47,184 nucleotides of DNA from Clostridia bacterium (GTDB lineage Bacteria; Bacillota; Clostridia; Oscillospirales; Acutalibacteraceae). The stretch is taken from positions 1 to 47,184 of the forward strand of contig JAGBSJ010000001.1 of the NCBI GenBank assembly GCA_017631955.1. Reading direction: 5' to 3'. The notes beneath the pieces were generated by a model, which was not told the origin of the DNA, did no database searches, and worked only from the letters and a program-made list of their open reading frames with translations. The position numbers and the translations under genes were made by a program. Position 1 is the stretch's first letter. Every line of letters starts with the position of its first letter. This document shows, piece after piece, positions 17,535 through 46,367 of this stretch.

Positions 17535-19892
17535 ATGCTTATACTTAAAGATTTCATTGAACTTTTTAAGAAAAACTCAATACTTACAAGCACAGAATGT
17601 GATGAAAACTCCCCTGTTGGTTTTGTTTCATACAATTCACAGGACTTAAAAGCAGATACTCTGTTTTTCTGTAAAGGGGCACATTTCAAAGAACAGTTTT
17701 TGCTTGATGCATTAGAAAATGGTGCTACTGCTTATGTTTCAGAAAAGAAATATAACACAGACGCTCCTTGTATTCTTGTGTCAGATATTAGAAAGTCAAT
17801 GTATCTTTCTGCAAACTTTTTCTATAACAACGCTTGGGACAAGTTAAACCTTGTTGGTATTACAGGTACAAAAGGCAAATCCACAACAGCGTACTTTATA
17901 AAATACATTGAAGACGAATATCTTGCATCTCTCGGCAAAGGTCCAAGTGCAATTGTATCTTCAATTGACACTTATGACGGCATTATCAATATTGAAAGCC
18001 ACTTAACTACTCCTGAGCCATTCGACCTTCACAAGCATTTTGACAATGCTATTAAAAGTGATATTAAGCACTTTACAATGGAGGTTTCTTCACAAGCCCT
18101 TAAATACGGCAGAACTGACGGTGTAACTTTCACAATCGGTTGTTATCTTAACATCGGCATTGACCACATAAGTGCTATTGAGCACCCTGATTTTGAAGAC
18201 TATTTCCAATCAAAAATGAAAATCTTTACACAATGCAAAACTGCAGTTGTAAATCTTGATACCGACCGTAGCGAAGATGTATTAAATGCCTCAAAAAATG
18301 CACCTGAAGTTATTACTTTCAGTACTAAAAATGCGAATGCAGATGTTTACGGTTACAACATTCGTAAAGACGGCTCCGACACAGTTTTCACAGTTAAAAC
18401 AAAAGATTTTGACCGCGACTTTACACTTACAATTCCCGGTCTTTTCAATGTTGAAAATGCACTTTGTGCTATTGCTGTGTGCACAAAACTGGGCATTCCT
18501 GAACAATATATTTACACAGGACTTCTAAAGGCGCGTTCAAGTGGTCGAATGGAAGTTTATGAAAACGCCGACAAGCGTATTACTGCAATTGTTGACTATG
18601 CTCACAACAGAATGAGCTTTGAAAATCTTTTCAAATCTGTACGCCAAGAATACCCTGGCAGAAAAGTTGCTATTGTATTCGGTTGTCCGGGCAACAAGGC
18701 ACTTATTCGTCGTAAGGATTTAGGCGAAATGGCAGGTATGTATGCCGATATGACATATATTACTGAAGAAGACCCGGGCGAAGAGCCACTTGAAAAGATT
18801 TCAAAAGAGGTTGCATCATTTGTTGAATCGCAAAACGGGAAATACAAGATTATTGATGACCGTGGAGTTGCAATTTCTACTGCAATCAATGAAATGGGCG
18901 CAGATAGCGTTATTCTTATAACCGGTAAGGGCAACGAAACAAGACAAAAGCGCGGAGTTGAATATATTCCTTGCCCTACTGACGTTGAATACACAATAAA
19001 AGCACTCAAAGAATACGATAAAAAAAACGGACTTGATAGTGATGAGAAGATAAAAAGTGTGCAAGACATACTCCCCCAACTTCACAAGCTTCACAACAAA
19101 AAAGTTGTAATCAAGCTTGGTGGCAGTTGTCTTGACGACGAAACACTTATGAAAAATCTTCTTGAAGATATTGCACTTCTTACAATGGTTGGTGCTAAAA
19201 TCGTTGTTGTGCACGGTGGTGGCAAAGAAATCAGTAAAACTCTCGACAAAATGAATCTTAAATCAGAATTCTACGAGGGTTATCGTGTTACAGGCGACGA
19301 AGAAATGGGCGTTGTAGAAATGGTGCTTTCTGGTAGCGTTAACAAAAAAATCGTTGAGCGTTTCTCACAAAGCAATATTTCTGCAGTTGGTATAAGCGGA
19401 ACTGATGGCAACATTTTAACTGCACTCCCAAAATATATTAACGGTAAATCTTTAGGTAGAGTTGGCGACATAAGTAAAGTTGATACAACACTTATTGATA
19501 CACTTCTTGAAAAAGATTACACAGTAGTTATCTCCCCTGTTGGCAGATGCTCGGCTCTCGGCACAGTAAACATTAATGCAGATGACGCTGCAGGGCAAAT
19601 TGCATTAGCACTTTCTGCAGATTACCTTGTTTATATTACAGATGTTAACGGAATTTTCCTTGACAGTCAGAACGAAAAAACTGCTTTAGAGCATATCACA
19701 ATCGAAAAAGCAAAAATGCTTTTAGATAGTGGTCTTGCAAAAGGTGGAATGATACCAAAAATCAACAATATTATAAATCTTATTGAAAACGGAGTAAAAG
19801 AAGTTGCAATTCTTAACGGCAGAGTCCGTTACAATATCATTTCAGAATTTATTGGCGCAAAAACTATTGGAACGGTGGTGACTCGTGACTAA
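17535..19892 (+). CDS. MurE-type Mur ligase fused to acetylglutamate kinase (ArgB)
   Basis: One uninterrupted 785-codon frame. Residues 1-495 are a full MurE-type ligase: N-terminal domain, P-loop GITGTKGKST (108-117), HLTTPEPF (156-163), EVSSQALKYGR (183-193), carbamylated-Lys position K227 (YFQSKMKIF) and a ligase domain with VFGCPGNK. Residues about 522-785 are an acetylglutamate kinase: KLGGS (527-531), VVHGGGKEI (558-566), GYRVTGDEEMGVVEMVL, TDVNGIFLD (702-710) and KGGMIPK (736-742). A linker of about 25 residues joins them, with no internal ribosome binding site or start. MurE adds the third stem-peptide residue; NAGK phosphorylates the gamma-carboxyl of N-acetylglutamate for ornithine/arginine synthesis. 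The MurE substrate motif is EDPGEEP, not DNPR. Whether both halves are active is unknown. Confidence 0.93.
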   Translation: MLILKDFIELFKKNSILTSTECDENSPVGFVSYNSQDLKADTLFFCKGAHFKEQFLLDALENGATAYVSEKKYNTDAPCILVSDIRKSMYLSANFFYNNAWDKLNLVGITGTKGKSTTAYFIKYIEDEYLASLGKGPSAIVSSIDTYDGIINIESHLTTPEPFDLHKHFDNAIKSDIKHFTMEVSSQALKYGRTDGVTFTIGCYLNIGIDHISAIEHPDFEDYFQSKMKIFTQCKTAVVNLDTDRSEDVLNASKNAPEVITFSTKNANADVYGYNIRKDGSDTVFTVKTKDFDRDFTLTIPGLFNVENALCAIAVCTKLGIPEQYIYTGLLKARSSGRMEVYENADKRITAIVDYAHNRMSFENLFKSVRQEYPGRKVAIVFGCPGNKALIRRKDLGEMAGMYADMTYITEEDPGEEPLEKISKEVASFVESQNGKYKIIDDRGVAISTAINEMGADSVILITGKGNETRQKRGVEYIPCPTDVEYTIKALKEYDKKNGLDSDEKIKSVQDILPQLHKLHNKKVVIKLGGSCLDDETLMKNLLEDIALLTMVGAKIVVVHGGGKEISKTLDKMNLKSEFYEGYRVTGDEEMGVVEMVLSGSVNKKIVERFSQSNISAVGISGTDGNILTALPKYINGKSLGRVGDISKVDTTLIDTLLEKDYTVVISPVGRCSALGTVNINADDAAGQIALALSADYLVYITDVNGIFLDSQNEKTALEHITIEKAKMLLDSGLAKGGMIPKINNIINLIENGVKEVAILNGRVRYNIISEFIGAKTIGTVVTRD

Positions 19893-38908: not shown

Positions 38909-39673
38909 ATGACTGATTCAAGAACACTTGCTTACATAAATATGTATGCAGTTCTCGGCACTTTGGAAAATCTTTGCGAACTTGACGACAAAGCAAAAGA
39001 AATTATTTCAGGTATTGAAAAACCAATTTCTGTTGCCTTTGATGTTAAGAATGGTCCAAGTGCTACACTTACATTCTCTAAAAACGGTTGCCGTATGGAT
39101 GATGGTGTGAACGCTGATTGCGACATCAAAATCCCTGTTGCTAATTGCGACAAATTTAACGGAATTATCGACGGCAAGGTAACTCCAATCCCAACAAAAG
39201 GTCTTACTAAGGTTAATTTCCTTCTTAAAACCTTCACAGCTCTCACTGACCGTCTTACAGAGGTTATGAGACCATCTGAAGAAGCACTTAAAGATGCTGA
39301 TTTCTTCCGTCTCAATACTCTCTGCACATTCTACACAGTATCAGTTGCCCTTTCACAGATTGGCAATCAGGATGCTATCGGTAAATTCAGCGCATCAAAC
39401 ATTGCTGATGGTGATATCCAGATTGGTATTACAAACGAAGTTTATGCTACAATCCGTGTTAAAGATAATCATATGATTACTATTAAACAGGCATCAGAAA
39501 AGCCACGTGCAATTATGGAATTCTGCGACATACCTCTTGCTAATGCACTTTTCGCAGGCACAGTTAACTCAATCGACCACGTTGGTAACGGTAACATTAC
39601 AATCCGTGGTCTTATCTCAATGGTAGATAACGTTAACCGTATTCTTGACAGAGTTGCACTCTATCTTGCATAA
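38909..39673 (+). CDS. SCP2-like two-domain protein A
   Basis: 254 residues from the ATG at 38909, eight bases after AAGGAGG (a longer ATG at 38837 precedes the promoter -10). No signal or membrane helix. Two successive segments look like sterol-carrier-protein-2 folds. Residues 40-120 carry D-I-K-I-P-V-x5-KFNGIIDGK, a hydrophobic helix and TKVNFLLKTF. Residues 168-253 carry AIMEFCDIPLANALFAGT, NITIRGLIS and RILDRVALYL. SCP2 domains bind fatty acids, acyl-CoA or sterols in a hydrophobic tunnel. It heads an operon with an aminotransferase and transketolase and has a distant paralogue at its end (42958). The assignment is from pattern recognition, so the fold should be confirmed. Confidence 0.65.
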   Translation: MTDSRTLAYINMYAVLGTLENLCELDDKAKEIISGIEKPISVAFDVKNGPSATLTFSKNGCRMDDGVNADCDIKIPVANCDKFNGIIDGKVTPIPTKGLTKVNFLLKTFTALTDRLTEVMRPSEEALKDADFFRLNTLCTFYTVSVALSQIGNQDAIGKFSASNIADGDIQIGITNEVYATIRVKDNHMITIKQASEKPRAIMEFCDIPLANALFAGTVNSIDHVGNGNITIRGLISMVDNVNRILDRVALYLA

Positions 39674-39687
39674 GGAGGACAAAAAAG

Positions 39688-40956
39688 ATGAGTAAATTCC
39701 CATTATACGATACTACTAAAAGCCGTGAAATGTTTAACCGTGCATCACAGGTTATTCCAGGCGGTATTTACGGTCATTTAGGTCCTGCTGAAGGTCAGTG
39801 GATTCCTGTTAACAGATGGCCATCATTCTCAGAAAAAGCACAGGGCTCTTACTTCTGGGACGTTGACGGTAACAAATATATTGACTATATGTGTGCTTAT
39901 GGCCCTAACGTTTTAGGTTACAATGACCCTGATGTTGACGCTGCTGCACTTGCACAGCTTAAACTCGGCAACTGCACAACTGCACCTGGAAAGGTTATGG
40001 TTGAATGTGCAGAAACACTTGTTGACACAGTTGCTTGTGCTGACTGGGCATTCTTCTGCAAGAATGGTTCAGATACAACAACACTTGCTACAATGGCAGC
40101 TCGTGCACATACACATAAAAAGAAGATTATCTTCTTAAAATACTACTACCACGGAGATTTCCCATGGGCACAGAAAATTGACTACCCAGGTATTACTCCT
40201 GAAGACGTAGCAAACAATGTTATCGTTCCTTGGTTCGACCTTGATGCTCTTCAAAAAGCATATGACGACAACAACGGCGATATCGCAGGTCTTATTGCTC
40301 AGCCATATGACCACGGTAACTTCAAAGATAACGAAGTAGCATCTAAAGAATACTGGCAGGCAGTTCGTAAATGGTGCGACGACCACGGTGTTGTTCTTAT
40401 CATTGACGACGTTCGTGCTGGTTTCCGTCTTGACCTTGCTGGTTCTGACCACTTCTATGGTTTCAAAGCAGACCTTATCTGCTTCTGTAAAGCACTTGCT
40501 AACGGTTACAATATGTCAGCACTTTGCGGTGGCGAACATATGAAAGCAACTGTTTCAGGTATTACCTACACTGGCTCTTACTGGATGAGCGCAGTTCCAT
40601 TTGCTGCTTGTATCGCTTGTATCAACAAGATGAAAGCACTTGACACACCTACAATGTTCCGTCGTCTTGGCCAAATGGTAACTGATGGTTTCAAGAAAGC
40701 TGGTGCTGAACACGGTTTCGACCTTCGCGTTTCAGGTGAACCTGCACTCTTCTATTTAAGAATTGCTAATGATGACAACCTTATGCTTCACCAGGAATGG
40801 GTTGCAGAATGTGTTAACCGCGGTTTGTTTATCACATCTCACCACAATCACTTCATTAACGCTTCTCTTACAGAAGACGACATTAAGTTGTCTATTGATA
40901 TTGCAGAAGATGCATTTGCAGCGGTTGCTAAGAGACACCCTGAACTTAGAGGTTAA
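39688..40956 (+). CDS. Class III PLP aminotransferase, GSA-aminomutase-like
   Basis: 422 residues. The fold I pattern of glutamate-1-semialdehyde aminomutase is present: ASQVIPGGIYG (19-29), FWDVDGNKYIDYMCAYGPNVLGYNDP, a phosphate-binding segment KNGSDTT (125-131), Asp240 in LIIDDVRAGFR (usually DEVxTGFR) and the Schiff-base Lys268 (CFCKALANGY). It moves an amino group to or within a keto or aldehyde substrate. A haem role is unlikely: no other haem genes are present, and the neighbours are transketolase subunits and SCP2-like proteins. AAGGAGG precedes the ATG, 14 bases after protein A. Codon use is strongly biased, suggesting high expression. Confidence 0.9.
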   Translation: MSKFPLYDTTKSREMFNRASQVIPGGIYGHLGPAEGQWIPVNRWPSFSEKAQGSYFWDVDGNKYIDYMCAYGPNVLGYNDPDVDAAALAQLKLGNCTTAPGKVMVECAETLVDTVACADWAFFCKNGSDTTTLATMAARAHTHKKKIIFLKYYYHGDFPWAQKIDYPGITPEDVANNVIVPWFDLDALQKAYDDNNGDIAGLIAQPYDHGNFKDNEVASKEYWQAVRKWCDDHGVVLIIDDVRAGFRLDLAGSDHFYGFKADLICFCKALANGYNMSALCGGEHMKATVSGITYTGSYWMSAVPFAACIACINKMKALDTPTMFRRLGQMVTDGFKKAGAEHGFDLRVSGEPALFYLRIANDDNLMLHQEWVAECVNRGLFITSHHNHFINASLTEDDIKLSIDIAEDAFAAVAKRHPELRG

Positions 40957-40978
40957 GCACAATTAATTAACAAATTAT

Positions 40979-40998
40979 AGCGGGGTGGGGACCCCGCT
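40979..40998 (+). other. GC-rich intercistronic hairpin
   Basis: AGCGGGGT / ACCCCGCT (40979-40986, 40991-40998) with loop GGGG, in the 72-base gap between aminotransferase and transketolase. It lacks a T-run, so it is not a classical terminator. It more probably sets mRNA stability or processing within the operon. Confidence 0.75.
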
Positions 40999-41028
40999 TC
41001 TAATAAAAGTTTTCTTGGAGGGAAAATT

Positions 41029-41910
41029 ATGGCTAATTTATCAAAAGCAGAATGGCTCGCACTCGAAAAGAAAGCCCTTGAACTCCGTAAACTCTGCGTA
41101 CAGACAACTGTATGGGCAGGTAGCGGACACTTCGGCGGCGGTATGAGTGTTATGGACCTTCTCACAGTTCTTTATCACAAGTATCTTAACATTAAAGTTG
41201 ATGACCCAAAATGGGACGACAGAGACCGTTTCATTCTTTCAAAAGGTCACGCAGCAATCGCTTATGCTCCTGTTCTTTGCGACAAGGGCTTCAACGATGT
41301 TGAAATGCTTAAATCATTCAACCTTTCTGGTTCAAAAATGGGTATGCACCTTGACTCAAACAAAGTTGTAGGCGTTGACGCTTCAACAGGTTCACTTGGT
41401 CACGGTCCATCAATCGCAGCAGGTACAGCACTTGCAGCACGCCTTATGAACAAAGATTTCCTTACATATGTAGTTACTGGTGACGGCGAACTTGACGAGG
41501 GTTCATGTTGGGAAGGTTTCATGACAATCAATCACTATAACCTTTCAAACTGTATCGTATTTATTGACCGTAACCACAATATGATTGACGGTAACACAGA
41601 AGATGTTAAGAAACTTGAACCACTTGCTGACAAGATGACAGCTTTCGGCTTCAACACAATCGTTGTTGATGGTAACAACATTGGTGAGCTTTGTGATGCT
41701 ATCGATGTTGCAATCGAAAGAGCAAAGACACCACAGGCACCTACATGTATTCTTATGGATACAAAGAAAGGTGCTGGTATCAAGTCAATCGAAGGCGACT
41801 ACACATGGCACTATGGTGCTATTGACGATGCACTCTTTGAAAAGTTTAATAATGAACTTGATGCTGACTATGCAGCAAGAGTTGCAAGAGCAGAGAAGGA
41901 GGGTAAATAA
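41029..41910 (+). CDS. Transketolase, N-terminal (pyrophosphate-binding) subunit
   Basis: 293 residues, equal to the first third of ordinary transketolase. It has GSGHFGGGMS (31-40; the usual P of GHPGG is F), SKGHAA (71-76), GSLGHGPS (121-128) and the thiamine diphosphate/Mg motif GDGELDEG (151-158) with the Asn-His-x-x motif near 180. Two-subunit transketolases are common in Clostridia and archaea and need the C-terminal subunit encoded next. They transfer a two-carbon ketol unit between ketose and aldose phosphates. Here the pair lies between an aminotransferase and SCP2-like proteins, so an aldehyde acceptor other than a sugar is possible. TTGGAGGG precedes the ATG. Confidence 0.94.
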   Translation: MANLSKAEWLALEKKALELRKLCVQTTVWAGSGHFGGGMSVMDLLTVLYHKYLNIKVDDPKWDDRDRFILSKGHAAIAYAPVLCDKGFNDVEMLKSFNLSGSKMGMHLDSNKVVGVDASTGSLGHGPSIAAGTALAARLMNKDFLTYVVTGDGELDEGSCWEGFMTINHYNLSNCIVFIDRNHNMIDGNTEDVKKLEPLADKMTAFGFNTIVVDGNNIGELCDAIDVAIERAKTPQAPTCILMDTKKGAGIKSIEGDYTWHYGAIDDALFEKFNNELDADYAARVARAEKEGK

Positions 41911-41912
41911 TT

Positions 41913-42920
41913 ATGGCAGGCGGATTTGTTTATACAGCAGTTGACCAGACTGCACTTTCTACAGCAGAAATTTACGGTAAGGCACTTGCCGACATTATTT
42001 TAAGAGACCCTAAGGTTGTTGCTATTACAGCTGACCTTGCAAAATCAACAAAACTCGGCGACGTTTTGAAAGTTTGTCCTGAAAGAGTTATCAATGTTGG
42101 TATCGCAGAACAGGATATGTTCGGTGTTGCAGCAGGTATGGCAAGAGCAGGTATGATTCCATTCCTTTCAGGTTTCTCTGCATTCACATCAATGCGTGCT
42201 TGTGACCAGCTTCACACAGACATCTGCTATCAGAATGTTAACGCAAAGATTATTGCTACTCACTCAGGTACATCATTCGGTCAGGCAGGTTCAACACACC
42301 ACGCTATTACTGACCTTGCTATTACAAGAGCAATGCCAAACCTTACAGTTATCGTTCCTGCAGACGGTTTTGAGACAGCAAACGCAGTTAACGCTGCTTA
42401 TGATAACTTTGGTCCTTACTACATTCGTATCAACCGTGGTTTTGACCGTGTTCTTTATGAGAATCAGGATTACGGCTTTGAAGTTGGTAAGGCAGTTGAA
42501 ATCTGTGAAGGTACAGATATTACAGTTATCGCTTGCGGTTCTTGCGTATTCCAGGCAAAACAGGCAGCTGACTTCCTTAAGAAAAATGACGGACTTTCAG
42601 TTCGCGTTCTTAATATGCACACAATCAGCCCAATCGACGTTGAAGCAATCCAGAAAGCAATTTCTGACACAAGAAGAATTGTAACAGTTGAAGACCATCT
42701 TGTAACAGGCGGTCTTGGCTCAGCAGTTGCAGAAGTTATGGCTCAGTACGGCAAGGGTTGTGCATTCAAGATGCTCGGTCATAAGAGTTTTGCTATGATT
42801 GGTCTTCAGGAAGACATTATGGCTGATGCAGGTATTGACGCTAACGGTATTATCGCATCCGTTCGTGAAATGATGAATGCAGACTTTGAAGAAGACGACA
42901 ACTGGGATGATGAAGTTTAA
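41913..42920 (+). CDS. Transketolase, C-terminal (pyrimidine-binding) subunit
   Basis: 335 residues with the pyrimidine-binding domain, including the catalytic Glu66 in NVGIAEQDM and THSGTSFGQAGSTHH (about 110-125), and the C-terminal transketolase domain (VIACGSCVFQA, VRVLNMHTISPID, TVEDHLVTGGLGSAVAEV). It completes the enzyme with the preceding gene, two bases away; GGAGGG near the end of that gene serves as its ribosome binding site. The separation is a normal subunit split: the upstream frame ends at a proper stop and this one has its own site and ATG. Codon use is biased in the same way as its neighbours. Confidence 0.94.
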   Translation: MAGGFVYTAVDQTALSTAEIYGKALADIILRDPKVVAITADLAKSTKLGDVLKVCPERVINVGIAEQDMFGVAAGMARAGMIPFLSGFSAFTSMRACDQLHTDICYQNVNAKIIATHSGTSFGQAGSTHHAITDLAITRAMPNLTVIVPADGFETANAVNAAYDNFGPYYIRINRGFDRVLYENQDYGFEVGKAVEICEGTDITVIACGSCVFQAKQAADFLKKNDGLSVRVLNMHTISPIDVEAIQKAISDTRRIVTVEDHLVTGGLGSAVAEVMAQYGKGCAFKMLGHKSFAMIGLQEDIMADAGIDANGIIASVREMMNADFEEDDNWDDEV

Positions 42921-42957
42921 TTCTTAAACCAAATCATTCAGAAAGAGAGTTGATAAT

Positions 42958-43764
42958 ATGCACGAACAAAATGAACTTTATGCATCAAAAATATTTTTCA
43001 ATGCTGCATTGCCACTCTTGAAGGTTATCGCTAATGACGTACCATCAATCAAAAAACAGTTTGACGGTATGAATGCGGTGCTTCAGGTCAGTGCACTTGA
43101 CGCTGATGCTCCAGGCGGAAAATATGCTACACACTTCATCATTACTGATGGCGAGTGGGAAACAAAGCTCGACTCTGCACACGAAGCACCTGACGTTGAG
43201 CTTGAATTCAAAACTATTGAAGCAATGAACGGTTTCTTCAAGGGTAAGATGGGACCATCTACACTTCCTAAAATGAAGGGTGTTTTCAAAAGTTTTGGCG
43301 CATTCAAGGCAATGCTTATGACACTTCTTAAGCTTTCAGCACTTACAGGTGCTACTGCTGCACCAAAGGATGAAGAAACACAGGTACTTATGGTTAAGTG
43401 CTTCTTCTACCTCCTTTCAAGCGGTATCAGCCAGCTTAACAAATTAGGTCATCCAGAAATCAAAGATTGGACTACAAAGAGCCCTGACCGTGTTTATGCT
43501 TTTGCAGTTGATGGTCATCCTGAGGTTTCTGCTTTCATTCGTATTAAAGCAGGTAAATCAAGAGCAGGTCGTGGCGAATACAAGAGAGCAATGCCTTTCT
43601 TCACACTTCGTTTCAACTGCCTTGAATCAGCACTTGGTATCCTTTTAAGCACAGACGATATGCTTGAATCAACAAAATCAGGTAAGCTTATTATGGAAGG
43701 CGGCCCTGAATTTGGTGCACAGCTCGGCGGATTTATGCTTGAAGTTGGCGCATTGGCAAAATAA
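42958..43764 (+). CDS. SCP2-like two-domain protein B
   Basis: 268 residues, no signal or membrane helix. Like protein A it seems to hold two SCP2-type halves. Residues 40-128 include TDGEWETKL, PDVELEFKTIEAMNGFFKGK and a hydrophobic helix (FKAMLMTLLKL). Residues 178-268 include VYAFAVDGHPEVSAFIRIK, FFTLRFNCLESALGILLST and GKLIMEGGPEFGAQLGGFM. The order of motifs matches protein A (for instance MNGFFKGKMGPS against FNGIIDGKVTPIP) at low identity, which points to an old duplication. It is the last gene of the operon before a strong terminator. A lipid-carrier or lipid-presenting role is inferred from the fold pattern only. Confidence 0.65.
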   Translation: MHEQNELYASKIFFNAALPLLKVIANDVPSIKKQFDGMNAVLQVSALDADAPGGKYATHFIITDGEWETKLDSAHEAPDVELEFKTIEAMNGFFKGKMGPSTLPKMKGVFKSFGAFKAMLMTLLKLSALTGATAAPKDEETQVLMVKCFFYLLSSGISQLNKLGHPEIKDWTTKSPDRVYAFAVDGHPEVSAFIRIKAGKSRAGRGEYKRAMPFFTLRFNCLESALGILLSTDDMLESTKSGKLIMEGGPEFGAQLGGFMLEVGALAK

Positions 43765-43778
43765 GATATACACATAAC

Positions 43779-43812
43779 AAAAAGCTCGGTTTTCACCGAG
43801 CTTTTTGTTTTT
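43779..43812. terminator. Bidirectional terminator between the two lipid-type loci
   Basis: Twelve-base stem AAAAAGCTCGGT / ACCGAGCTTTTT (43779-43790, 43795-43806), loop TTTC, then GTTTTT. It serves the operon ending at 43764 and the convergent acyl ligase fusion gene. Confidence 0.94.
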
Positions 43813-43820
43813 ATGTTGTT

Positions 43821-46367
43821 TTATTTTCTGCACTCACTCTGCAATTTTAGAATTGCATTTTGAATTTCGTTTGTTAATTCTTCAACGGATTTTCCGTCAG
43901 ATGAAATTGCTTCACCGAATGCAACATCTACATCGAATTTTTTCTTGTTCTTTGTATCGTAGAACTTCATCATTTTCTTGCCCTTAGGGAACAATTCGTA
44001 TGCACCGTTAATGTAAACAGGAACAACAGGCACACCCGCGTCAATAGCAAGAACTGAAGCACCACTCTTAATCTCACGGAAAATACCATCGGCACTTCTT
44101 GTACCTTCAGGATGAATAAGCACACACCAGTCCTCTTTAAGTTTTGCTTTAAGAGAGTTCATTGTGTTCATATTCATTCCGCCACGGTCAACAGGCACCA
44201 TACCCGTTGCTTTAATGAGTTTTTTACTGAATGCATCGTTGCGGAAAAGCTCTTTCTTTGCCATACAACAAAGTTTCATAAACTTCTCTTTTGTAAACGC
44301 CATTGAAACAAAAAGATAGTCAATTTTTGAAACATGGTTTGCACAAATAATGAATCCTTTATCAGTTGGCATATTCTGAGCATTCTTAATTTTCACATTG
44401 TAGCAGGATTTTGCAAAATCTCTAATTTTAGCGTATGTTTTGTAATCTGCCTCAGTTTTTTCTTGTGGGTAAATGCCAATATCTGTTGTTTCAGTTTCAG
44501 CAATGTCGCCTTTTTCAATAGCAACAACCAACTCTTTGACTGTCATTTCTTTAGAATAAGCACTTTCAACATTTACATTATATACGCTTTCAATTTCCAT
44601 AGCCAAATCAACTGAACTCAGAGAATCAAACGCAAGGTCTGTGAAAATCTTTGTGTTTTCGTTTATTTGTGATACAGGTGCACCTGAAACGTTAGCAATA
44701 ATGCGAATAACCTGTGCAAGTAAATCCAAATCTTCAATAGGAACATCCGGAACTATAACTTCGCCGTTACGTTCTTCAATGGCTTGTTTTTTAAGAAGAT
44801 ATCTTTTTGCTTTTTGCAAAGATGTTCTTGGAATTTCATTTATAAAGTGAGTTTTGAAAATTCGCATATTCTGAGCAACAACTGCGCCCTTTTCGCGAAT
44901 TTGCTCTTCAATTTTTCCGCGTAATTCCTGTGCCTCTGCAACAATGAAAGCATGAATTTCGTCGTAATCTTTATTCTCGGCAGGAACACCACAGATTACA
45001 AACTCTTTAACACCTTCCATATTAGCATATTTTGCCTCTAAGTCATCAGGTGTAACTTTTTTACCTGTTGAAAGCACAATGTTTTCTTTTGAACGACCAA
45101 CAATTTTAATGTTGCCCTCATTATCACGAGTAGCAAGGTCGCCTGTTTTGAACCATCCGTCTTCAGTAAACGCCTCTTTTGTGGATTCTTCGTCACGGAA
45201 ATAGCCCTTCATCATATATGGTGACTTAATGAGCAATTCACCCTCGTCAGTAAAATCCACTTGAATATCAGGGTATGGCTTACCGCAAGAATCAGTATGA
45301 ATATTGCCCTCAACATTACCGATTGTAGGAATATTTGTTTCGCTTGCACCGTATGTAATAAGAAGATTAAAGCCAGTTCCATAATAGAAATCAGCAACCT
45401 CTTCACTTAACGGAGCACCTGCAGAACAAAGAAATTCAAGGCAACCACCAAATCCCTCGTGAATACTCTTAAAGAGTTTTTTACCAAGTAAAGAGCCGTT
45501 CTTTCTTCTTGCTTTAAGACAAATCGGGAAGAACTTTTCGAACATAATTTTTGTAGCGGGCTTTGAATTGATTTTGCGGAGTACTGCAGTTCTGAAAAGT
45601 TCATAAACCTTTGGTACTGCAGGCAAAACTGTTGGATGATATTCTGCGAATGCACCAAGAATTGCCTCAGCCGCAATAGTTTCAATATAGTGAACGTCAG
45701 AGCCGGAAAGTGCAGGGCCTAAAACAAGACAGATTACACCATAAATATGGCTGTTAGGAAGAATCGCAAGGAATCGCGCATCATCTTTAAGCTTTTGCAC
45801 CTTTATTGTCATTTGTGTTGTCTTAATAAGCGACTCGTGGTAGTGCATAATTCCCGCCGCCTTGCGAGTTGTTCCTGAAGAGAAAATAATGCAAGCAACA
45901 TTTTCGTCGGTATCAGTGCTTTGTGGCAAATCCGCTGAAACAGTTTTAACTGAATCTTCGAACAATGTGCCGTCTGCTACATTGAAAAATGGGAATTTGT
46001 AATCTGCAATATTCTCTAATTTTTCGTATGCAGTTTGTGATACAAACGCGGCGCGTACATCTGAACGAGTAATAAACTCGTCTAAATCCTCCCCTGTAAG
46101 TGAAGCATCAATAAGAGCCGCAGTGCAACGAATTTTGCAAGACGCAAAAAATGCGATAGACCATTCAGGGCTACTTTCGGCAACGAATGCGATTCTGTCC
46201 CCTGCCTTTACGCCTGCATTTACAAGGGCATCAGCATACTTTTCAACTGCCGTAAAAACTTCTGCATAGGTGTAAATTCGTCTTTCGCCATTGTTCATAG
46301 CCATTGACATAGCACGCTTGTTAGGGTGTTTTGAGTTTATCTCATAAACCGTATCAAAAATGTTCAT
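43821..46367 (-). CDS. Acyl-adenylating enzyme, ACP and PlsC acyltransferase fusion
   Basis: 848 residues, three domains in order. (1) AMP-binding acyl ligase (1-540), with an altered P-loop SSGTTRKAAG (163-172, usually SGTTGxPKG), YGASE (339-343), TGD (408-410) and C-terminal Lys519 in PRTSLQKAKR. (2) Acyl-carrier domain (545-620), with pantetheine site Ser582 in AFDSLSS. (3) PlsC/LPLAT acyltransferase (650-848), with NHVSKID (677-683) and HPEGTRS (752-758). A plausible role is to activate a free acyl chain, hold it on the built-in carrier and pass it to a lysolipid or amino-alcohol acceptor at the membrane. The order is the reverse of E. coli Aas, where the acyltransferase comes first. It faces the SCP2/transketolase operon. 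Confidence 0.93.
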   Translation of the reverse strand: MNIFDTVYEINSKHPNKRAMSMAMNNGERRIYTYAEVFTAVEKYADALVNAGVKAGDRIAFVAESSPEWSIAFFASCKIRCTAALIDASLTGEDLDEFITRSDVRAAFVSQTAYEKLENIADYKFPFFNVADGTLFEDSVKTVSADLPQSTDTDENVACIIFSSGTTRKAAGIMHYHESLIKTTQMTIKVQKLKDDARFLAILPNSHIYGVICLVLGPALSGSDVHYIETIAAEAILGAFAEYHPTVLPAVPKVYELFRTAVLRKINSKPATKIMFEKFFPICLKARRKNGSLLGKKLFKSIHEGFGGCLEFLCSAGAPLSEEVADFYYGTGFNLLITYGASETNIPTIGNVEGNIHTDSCGKPYPDIQVDFTDEGELLIKSPYMMKGYFRDEESTKEAFTEDGWFKTGDLATRDNEGNIKIVGRSKENIVLSTGKKVTPDDLEAKYANMEGVKEFVICGVPAENKDYDEIHAFIVAEAQELRGKIEEQIREKGAVVAQNMRIFKTHFINEIPRTSLQKAKRYLLKKQAIEERNGEVIVPDVPIEDLDLLAQVIRIIANVSGAPVSQINENTKIFTDLAFDSLSSVDLAMEIESVYNVNVESAYSKEMTVKELVVAIEKGDIAETETTDIGIYPQEKTEADYKTYAKIRDFAKSCYNVKIKNAQNMPTDKGFIICANHVSKIDYLFVSMAFTKEKFMKLCCMAKKELFRNDAFSKKLIKATGMVPVDRGGMNMNTMNSLKAKLKEDWCVLIHPEGTRSADGIFREIKSGASVLAIDAGVPVVPVYINGAYELFPKGKKMMKFYDTKNKKKFDVDVAFGEAISSDGKSVEELTNEIQNAILKLQSECRK

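Follow-up and report, generated by a model that had tools for sequence, protein, structure and literature searches.

A possible sphingoid-base route in gut Clostridia encoded by a FumI-like aminotransferase, a split transketolase and two predicted SCP2-fold proteins

The sphingolipids of the gut originate in the host, in food and in Bacteroides, and they act on host metabolism and immunity. Sphingoid bases are made by serine palmitoyltransferase and broken down by sphingosine-1-phosphate (S1P) lyase. In vitro, transketolase–transaminase cascades yield chiral amino-alcohols (PMC5813273), and an aminotransferase of Sphingopyxis converts aminopentol, or hydrolysed fumonisin, to its 2-keto form with pyruvate and pyridoxal phosphate (PLP) (PMC7076809); fumonisins are described as sphinganine analogues (PMC7711896). 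Here we analyse a 47,184-nucleotide stretch of DNA (the window) from a Clostridia bacterium of the Acutalibacteraceae (assembly GCA_017631955.1, contig JAGBSJ010000001.1, positions 1–47,184 of the forward strand), in which positions 38909–43764 (+) hold a cassette of five co-directional open reading frames (ORFs): S1, an aminotransferase (AT), the two halves of a split transketolase (TKN and TKC) and S2. The source genome is a metagenome-assembled genome (MAG) of 1.4 Mb, 77.65% complete, in which S2 is single copy. We infer, giving about an even chance to the whole scheme of substrates, shared pathway and lipid carriage, that the five proteins convert a long-chain 2-amino-1,3-diol (a sphingoid base or a near analogue) into a fatty aldehyde plus a C2 ketol unit, or the reverse.

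The aminotransferase matches Aminotran_3 in Pfam, and its Lys268, presumably the catalytic lysine, was invariant in 18 sequences. Searched against solved enzymes, the AT profile scored highest with the aminopentol aminotransferase 6HBS, which we take to be FumI of Sphingopyxis (363 bits); the next match, the best glutamate-1-semialdehyde (GSA) aminomutase, reached 212 bits. Pairwise scores of the window AT alone ran the same way, at 309 bits and 38.2% identity (154/403) for 6HBS and 146 bits and 30.6% (109/356) for the GSA aminomutase 4E77. Among 125 columns invariant in operon aminotransferases and covered in both comparisons, 77 matched 6HBS and 53 the GSA aminomutase. By these profile and pairwise scores, and not by a tree, 6HBS is the nearest of the solved class III enzymes to AT. 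A sequence-only reading of the window had framed AT as GSA-type, with a link to haem; that framing is set aside, given the nearer relationship to 6HBS and a score of 178 bits against the 527.3-bit cut-off of the HemL model TIGR00713. FumI (PDB 6HBS, 6HBV) shares with AT the class III PLP sequence and the motif MCAYGPN. FumI acts on a long-chain 2-amino alcohol, the same activity that we propose for AT, and follows an esterase on fumonisin, whereas AT is partnered with a transketolase and SCP2-fold proteins.

TKN and TKC, scored apart, reached 222 and 239 bits with NCBIfam NF004559, a single-chain transketolase model with a cut-off of 488 bits. The operon sequences (51 of TKN and 50 of TKC, one cut row having been dropped) were aligned to E. 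coli TktA, whose numbering is used here, together with four pairs from distant operons and, for comparison, 16 further split transketolases from these genomes. TKN residues H26, H66, H100, D155, E160, N185 and H261 were kept in 51/51 sequences and TKC residues E411 and H473 in 50/50; from residue roles in the E. coli enzyme, we take these nine positions to be the thiamine diphosphate (ThDP) and ketol-donor residues. At the D469 position, Ala was found in all 50 operon TKC sequences and all four distant ones, and Asp in 14 of the 16 comparison sequences, the two exceptions (L219 and L220) being a further paralogue. The R358 position held Ala, Ser or Thr in all 50 (Ala in the window) and Arg in 16/16 comparison sequences; the four distant pairs had Gly, Gly, Ala and Arg, so that the arginine was lost in three of them. 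Ser occupied the S385 position in 50/50 operon sequences versus Ala or Gly in the comparison set, and H461 and R520 were kept in 50/50. Read from the motif, four unlinked copies carried Ala (three) or Ser (L233) in place of D469.

In E. coli transketolase, changes at R358, S385, D469 and R520 raise activity on aromatic aldehydes (PMC7661550), and the lineage leading to S385Y/D469T/R520Q was evolved from phosphorylated via non-polar aliphatic to aromatic aldehydes (PMC5073344). The altered acceptor site of the operon enzyme would fit an aldehyde that lacks a 2-hydroxyl. In the E. coli D469 variants of the latter source the substitution was engineered, whereas in the operon enzyme it is natural. 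Carboxydothermus ChTK-F is, like TKN–TKC, a two-chain ThDP transketolase encoded by split genes; as described, it lacks the engineered substitutions (PMC7661550), whereas the operon enzyme has both Asp469 and Arg358 replaced and is partnered with AT and the SCP2-fold proteins. Of 15 genomes searched, 14 also carry a canonical split transketolase, closer to the Pfam model; the one without it is a MAG of 75% completeness. Together with the changed acceptor site, this copy disfavours an ordinary pentose phosphate role for the operon enzyme, a divergent extra copy for which the first framing as a pentose-phosphate enzyme is not supported.

The end proteins had no recognizable family by sequence: with Pfam at E values up to 1, S1 had no match and S2 only a sub-threshold one to Arm_4 (E 0.12), with no SCP2 model for either, and a profile search against solved chains returned one weak unrelated match for each (E 0.27 and 0.69). 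The two show weak mutual similarity (BLASTP E 2e-6 in this one comparison, 26% identity over 92 residues). AlphaFold modelled both with high mean pLDDT (93.3 for S1 from 31 sequences and 90.3 for S2 from 29). Foldseek searches with these models at E ≤0.001 gave 22 matches for S1 and 8 for S2, and SCP2 proteins (TT1886, UbiJ-SCP2, 2cx7, AF1534 and human SCP-2L, 6z1w) were matched at probability 1.00, with TM scores on the target of up to 0.72 for S1 and, among the matches listed, up to 0.62 for S2. Other matches were to alkylsulfatases or YjcS, the C-terminal domain of which is, we assume, SCP2-like. The SCP2 matches span about half of each query, and because the DSSP strings of S1 and S2 each contain a strand–helix pattern twice, each protein probably has two SCP2-like domains. 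The models thus bear out the SCP2 fold that the sequence-only reading had assigned to both end proteins, and make S1 and S2 candidate lipid carriers. They would share their fold with the lipid-binding SCP2 and UbiJ-SCP2 proteins and differ from them in having two predicted tandem domains and no Pfam sequence match.

The five genes travel together. S2 was present in 35 of 36 genus genomes searched (the source genome included) and in 0/23 genomes of other families of the order; the only genus genome lacking it (G019, 86% complete) had no AT match, and its TKC scores were of canonical type only. Examination of 20 genus neighbourhoods gave 19 with a match (all except G019), 18 of them with all five genes in order and one cut by a contig end. 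The complete order was also seen at 31 of 36 further family loci. Of the other five, L103 and L115 have S1–AT and, at another place, the transketolase module, L109 and L114 run into contig ends, and in L116 AT is cut and is not followed by TKN. A wider contig survey, which overlaps these genomes and so is not an independent set, found all five in order at 67 of 80 loci, in a few of which an end gene was cut; of the other 13, five were cut inside the operon and eight had S1–AT without an adjacent TKN in the 1.3–8 kb available. Three far relatives (L221–L223) keep the order at AT identities of 58%, 58% and 44.5%. These counts show the conserved co-occurrence that the sequence-only reading had proposed to look for.

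Of 150 family genomes, 38 have an AT at ≥53% identity. Beyond the family, the genomes sampled yielded few and scattered cases of the cassette, with S2 in 5 of 398 genomes of a phylum sample and AT in 3 of 391 of a class sample, the window included in both. Record titles of close relatives point to the gut of goat, sheep, water deer and water buffalo, and those of others to rabbit and horse; the cultured Eubacterium coprostanoligenes ATCC 51222 (L157) carries all five genes. Some cassettes are mosaic: L087, L088 and L105 have TKN and TKC 81–95% identical to those of the window and S1, AT and S2 at 55–70%, and L198 has an AT 91% identical with its other genes at 57–73%, identities which suggest that single modules may have been exchanged in place.

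Presence of the operon-type transketolase tracked that of AT. We defined operon-type TKC by a profile E value of ≤1e-110, canonical TKC reaching at best 1.3e-99, and found it in 36/150 family genomes. Every one of the 36 has AT, so that 36 of the 38 AT-bearing genomes and 0 of the 112 others carry operon-type TKC (Fisher test 1e-32, a value that ignores kinship among related, non-independent genomes). In the two remaining AT-bearing genomes, AT lies at a contig end (G135) or is cut (G141, 81% complete). The cassette is made up of two modules, [S1–AT] and [TKN–TKC–S2], usually joined and sometimes apart; co-occurrence of the five genes is conserved, whereas the picture of a single indivisible block does not hold. 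Both modules are present though unlinked in six genomes: five (G101, G080, G971, G972 and G979) have a separate TKN–TKC–S2 cluster alongside a detached S1–AT, and in G365 the two lie on different contigs. In the small genome G080, an iron-containing alcohol dehydrogenase follows S1–AT on the same strand (L115, 8329–9501), the transketolase module being elsewhere. Operon-type TKC was not found in seven S1–AT genomes, namely G973–G977 (completeness not given), G898 (100% complete) and G907 (94%), the last with two stops in its AT reading frame. The reverse, transketolase without AT, was seen in 0/36 genomes of the family sample and in 0/4 far genomes reached through S2.

Carrier folds, FumI likeness and transketolase chemistry meet on one structure, and it is this convergence that makes the case for a pathway, none of the three being enough alone. 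Joining a C2 unit to an aldehyde would give a 1,3-dihydroxy-2-ketone and transamination of that ketone a 2-amino-1,3-diol; with a fatty aldehyde, a sphingoid base would result, by analogy with the in vitro cascades. Both the lipid-carrier folds and the likeness to FumI point to such a long-chain substrate. In the scheme that we propose, AT would interconvert the amino-diol and the 1,3-dihydroxy-2-ketone by exchanging the 2-amino group with a 2-oxo acid, for example pyruvate; the split transketolase would break or make the C2–C3 bond of this ketone through a ThDP-bound glycolaldehyde unit, probably with a phosphorylated sugar from the pentose phosphate pathway as its other substrate; and S1 and S2, as double-SCP2 proteins, would bind the hydrophobic chain so that the two soluble enzymes can act on it. 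In the direction of breakdown, AT would act first and the transketolase second, and alanine, C2 sugar units and the fatty aldehyde would pass into ordinary metabolism. Breakdown is slightly favoured over synthesis, mainly because AT was seen without the transketolase and the reverse was not, as expected if AT acts first, a modest reason. The sequence-only reading had suspected a dedicated system that matches no described pathway; such a system, probably a lipid-related one, is supported, and our literature searches found no pathway described for it.

Several observations weigh against this proposal. Wild-type transketolases make 3S ketols and natural sphinganine is 3R; the 3S configuration fits threo and not erythro bases, and fumonisin B1, which is 2S,3S, would fit the threo series. 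AT is only 38% identical to 6HBS, and in the genomes with AT and no operon-type TKC the aminotransferase may work alone. At the phosphate site, S385, H461 and R520 are unchanged in 50/50 sequences, so that ordinary sugar phosphates may serve on one or both sides; these residues could still be binding the phosphate of the sugar partner. Substitutions of the D469 and R358 type are not required for a bulky aldehyde, because a split-gene transketolase without them also accepts one (PMC7661550). A mouse study with alkyne-sphinganine reports that the label was found in Bacteroides (99%) and names Firmicutes in the negative fraction (PMC7910519). No headgroup, N-acylation or uptake gene was recognized among the recurrent neighbours of the cassette.

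A link to ceramidases likewise brings no help, and we do not count it. Matches to PF04734 (ceramidase) at E ≤0.001 occurred in 27/150 family genomes, 20 of the 38 with AT and 7 of the 112 without (Fisher 3e-9, among related genomes), and only one of the eight best loci, L251, has the GD(V/I)SP motif, which L252–L258 lack (L256 is cut by a contig end). L251, in the operon-bearing genome G098, is neutral-ceramidase-like, with a PF04734 E value of 4.9e-63, the motif GDISPN and a hydrophobic N-terminus. L253, L257 and L258 are PF04734-like proteins of about 490–500 residues without the ceramidase serine motif, and weak PF04734 matches number up to several per genome, more frequently in AT-bearing genomes. 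The window also encodes a GH30-type glycosidase (PF14587; 26144–27745); we made no use of it as a glucosylceramidase, its nearest solved relatives being the exported protein 3CLW and an endo-beta-1,6-galactanase.

The same enzymes run in reverse could make sphingoid-like bases without serine palmitoyltransferase: the transketolase would extend a fatty aldehyde by a C2 unit, with xylulose 5-phosphate or fructose 6-phosphate as donor, and AT would then aminate the ketone. Such biosynthesis is a special case of the proposed interconversion, with which its probability overlaps, and we consider it somewhat unlikely. The order of transketolase then transaminase is that of the in vitro cascades (PMC5813273), and the high use of C-ending codons described below would suit a membrane lipid. 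The missing N-acyl and headgroup genes speak against synthesis, as do the one-sided occurrence of AT without transketolase, the patchy spread through the family and literature searches that, in the sources accessible, turned up no report of Firmicutes sphingolipids.

An explanation that dispenses with long-chain lipids has AT and the transketolase acting on a soluble ketose or aldehyde, to give an amino sugar or amino-polyol, with S1 and S2 as scaffolds or non-lipid binders. Transketolases and class III aminotransferases do commonly use small substrates, and retention of S385, H461 and R520 agrees with one; the loss of D469 and R358, an aminopentol aminotransferase as the nearest solved relative of AT and two lipid-type folds within one operon make this reading unlikely. 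We judge it similarly improbable that the cassette serves detoxification, in which S1–AT, like FumI, would deaminate either free long-chain bases with antimicrobial action or sphinganine-analogue mycotoxins from the diet, and the transketolase module would supply an optional second step. The likeness of AT to 6HBS, the seven genomes with S1–AT and no operon-type TKC, and the herbivore guts named as the source of many loci all accord with that role, whereas the high C-ending codon use and the presence of the transketolase in 36 of the 38 AT-bearing family genomes suggest more than rare detoxification. That an ordinary second transketolase and unrelated neighbours stand together by chance or for shared expression is highly improbable, even though each enzyme belongs to a common family, given the same five genes with differing flanks across genera and families, the retention of both modules when unlinked, the nested co-occurrence of operon-type TKC with AT and the uniform change in the transketolase active site.

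The layout and signals of the locus are collected in Table 1. All five coding sequences had been noted as tightly spaced, and all five are there, with intergenic gaps of 14, 72, 2 and 37 bases in cassette order. They had also been said to share a promoter and a terminator. The terminator is supported by a strong hairpin with a T run; a single promoter is unproven, because promoter-like sites do not exceed those in shuffled sequence (9 versus a shuffle mean of 12.0), and none was distinguishable from chance. The gap between AT and TKN carries a hairpin of its own. Inspected by eye, the same gap has the same stem in L061, other stem letters with a GGGGA-like loop in L062, L063 and L079, and no such hairpin in L064, L066, L071, L072 and L075, a persistence that hints at a kept RNA structure. 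The codon bias that the sequence-only reading had taken as a sign of high expression agrees with our counts: the fraction of C-ending NNY codons is 0.58–0.69 in the five genes against 0.18–0.64 in the 21 other window genes measured, of which only an MFS gene (0.64) falls within the operon range and an EF-G-like gene reaches 0.53.

Table 1. Features of the five-gene cassette and its signals in the window.
Feature	Position	Strand	Size and basis
S1, predicted two-SCP2-domain protein, lipid carrier candidate	38909..39673	+	254 aa; ORF, AF2 model and Foldseek
AT, class III PLP aminotransferase	39688..40956	+	422 aa; Pfam Aminotran_3, 6HBS likeness
Hairpin in the AT–TKN gap, border of the two modules	40979..40998	+	z -3.0 for the gap
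TKN, ThDP-binding half of split transketolase	41029..41910	+	293 aa; Pfam Transketolase_N
TKC, second half of split transketolase, altered acceptor site	41913..42920	+	335 aa; Pfam Transket_pyr + Transketolase_C, residue tally
S2, predicted two-SCP2-domain protein, lipid carrier candidate	42958..43764	+	268 aa; ORF, AF2 model and Foldseek
Intrinsic terminator-like hairpin, T run	43776..43809	+	15 pairs; z -8.4 (43765-43820)

The recurrent genes identified beside the cassette look like local synteny. The convergent acyl ligase–acyl carrier protein (ACP)–acyltransferase fusion (43821–46367, by Pfam) is real, as the sequence-only reading had it; the hint of a lipid product taken from it fails, as the gene is not conserved beside the operon, and we do not include it in the system. 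At full length it was found there in just two cases, the window and the close relative L063 (73%; on the contig that also holds L125), with weak partial matches in L097 (28%) and L105 (23%). Flanking clusters that recur in ≥4 of the 80 survey loci include SecA (22 loci), a PF12897 aspartate aminotransferase (18), a TrpS-type tRNA synthetase (16), YceG, a SpoU methylase and a short-chain dehydrogenase, and some further clusters are antisense ORFs; none of the identified genes was taken as a member of the system. The PF12897 gene lies mostly 1–2 kb upstream of the cassette (for example, L188 12825–14081), probably also as local synteny. Elsewhere in the window, a 785-residue ORF (17535–19892) resembles, as read from its sequence, a fusion of a MurE-type ligase with a C-terminal part like acetylglutamate kinase.

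Compared with described routes, the cassette would reach the same end compounds as serine palmitoyltransferase and S1P lyase do, with five genes that include neither serine condensation nor such a lyase and with ThDP chemistry at the C2–C3 bond. Neither enzyme was found among the five genes and the convergent neighbour with Pfam and NCBIfam, the rest of the genome not having been searched. The in vitro cascades run the same pair of reactions to amino-diols (PMC5813273); here the pair sits in a natural operon together with lipid-carrier-like proteins. Our literature searches, which left most subscription papers outside their reach, found no account of a transketolase in sphingoid metabolism or of this five-gene set, and nothing relevant came up that links transketolase to sphingolipids, sphingoid bases or sterol carrier proteins. 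The enzymes are of known families, and the pathway is without a described counterpart in the literature searched.

We rate at slightly below even the chance that gut Clostridia have an undescribed sphingoid-base route built from a lipid-adapted transketolase, a FumI-like aminotransferase and tandem SCP2 carriers, with neither serine palmitoyltransferase nor S1P lyase. If so, the cassette would be a natural version of the engineered transketolase–transaminase cascade. It would also represent a second bacterial chemistry for the sphingolipid core in gut Clostridia, a group that includes the cultured cholesterol reducer E. coprostanoligenes ATCC 51222, and would show where such lipids go or come from.

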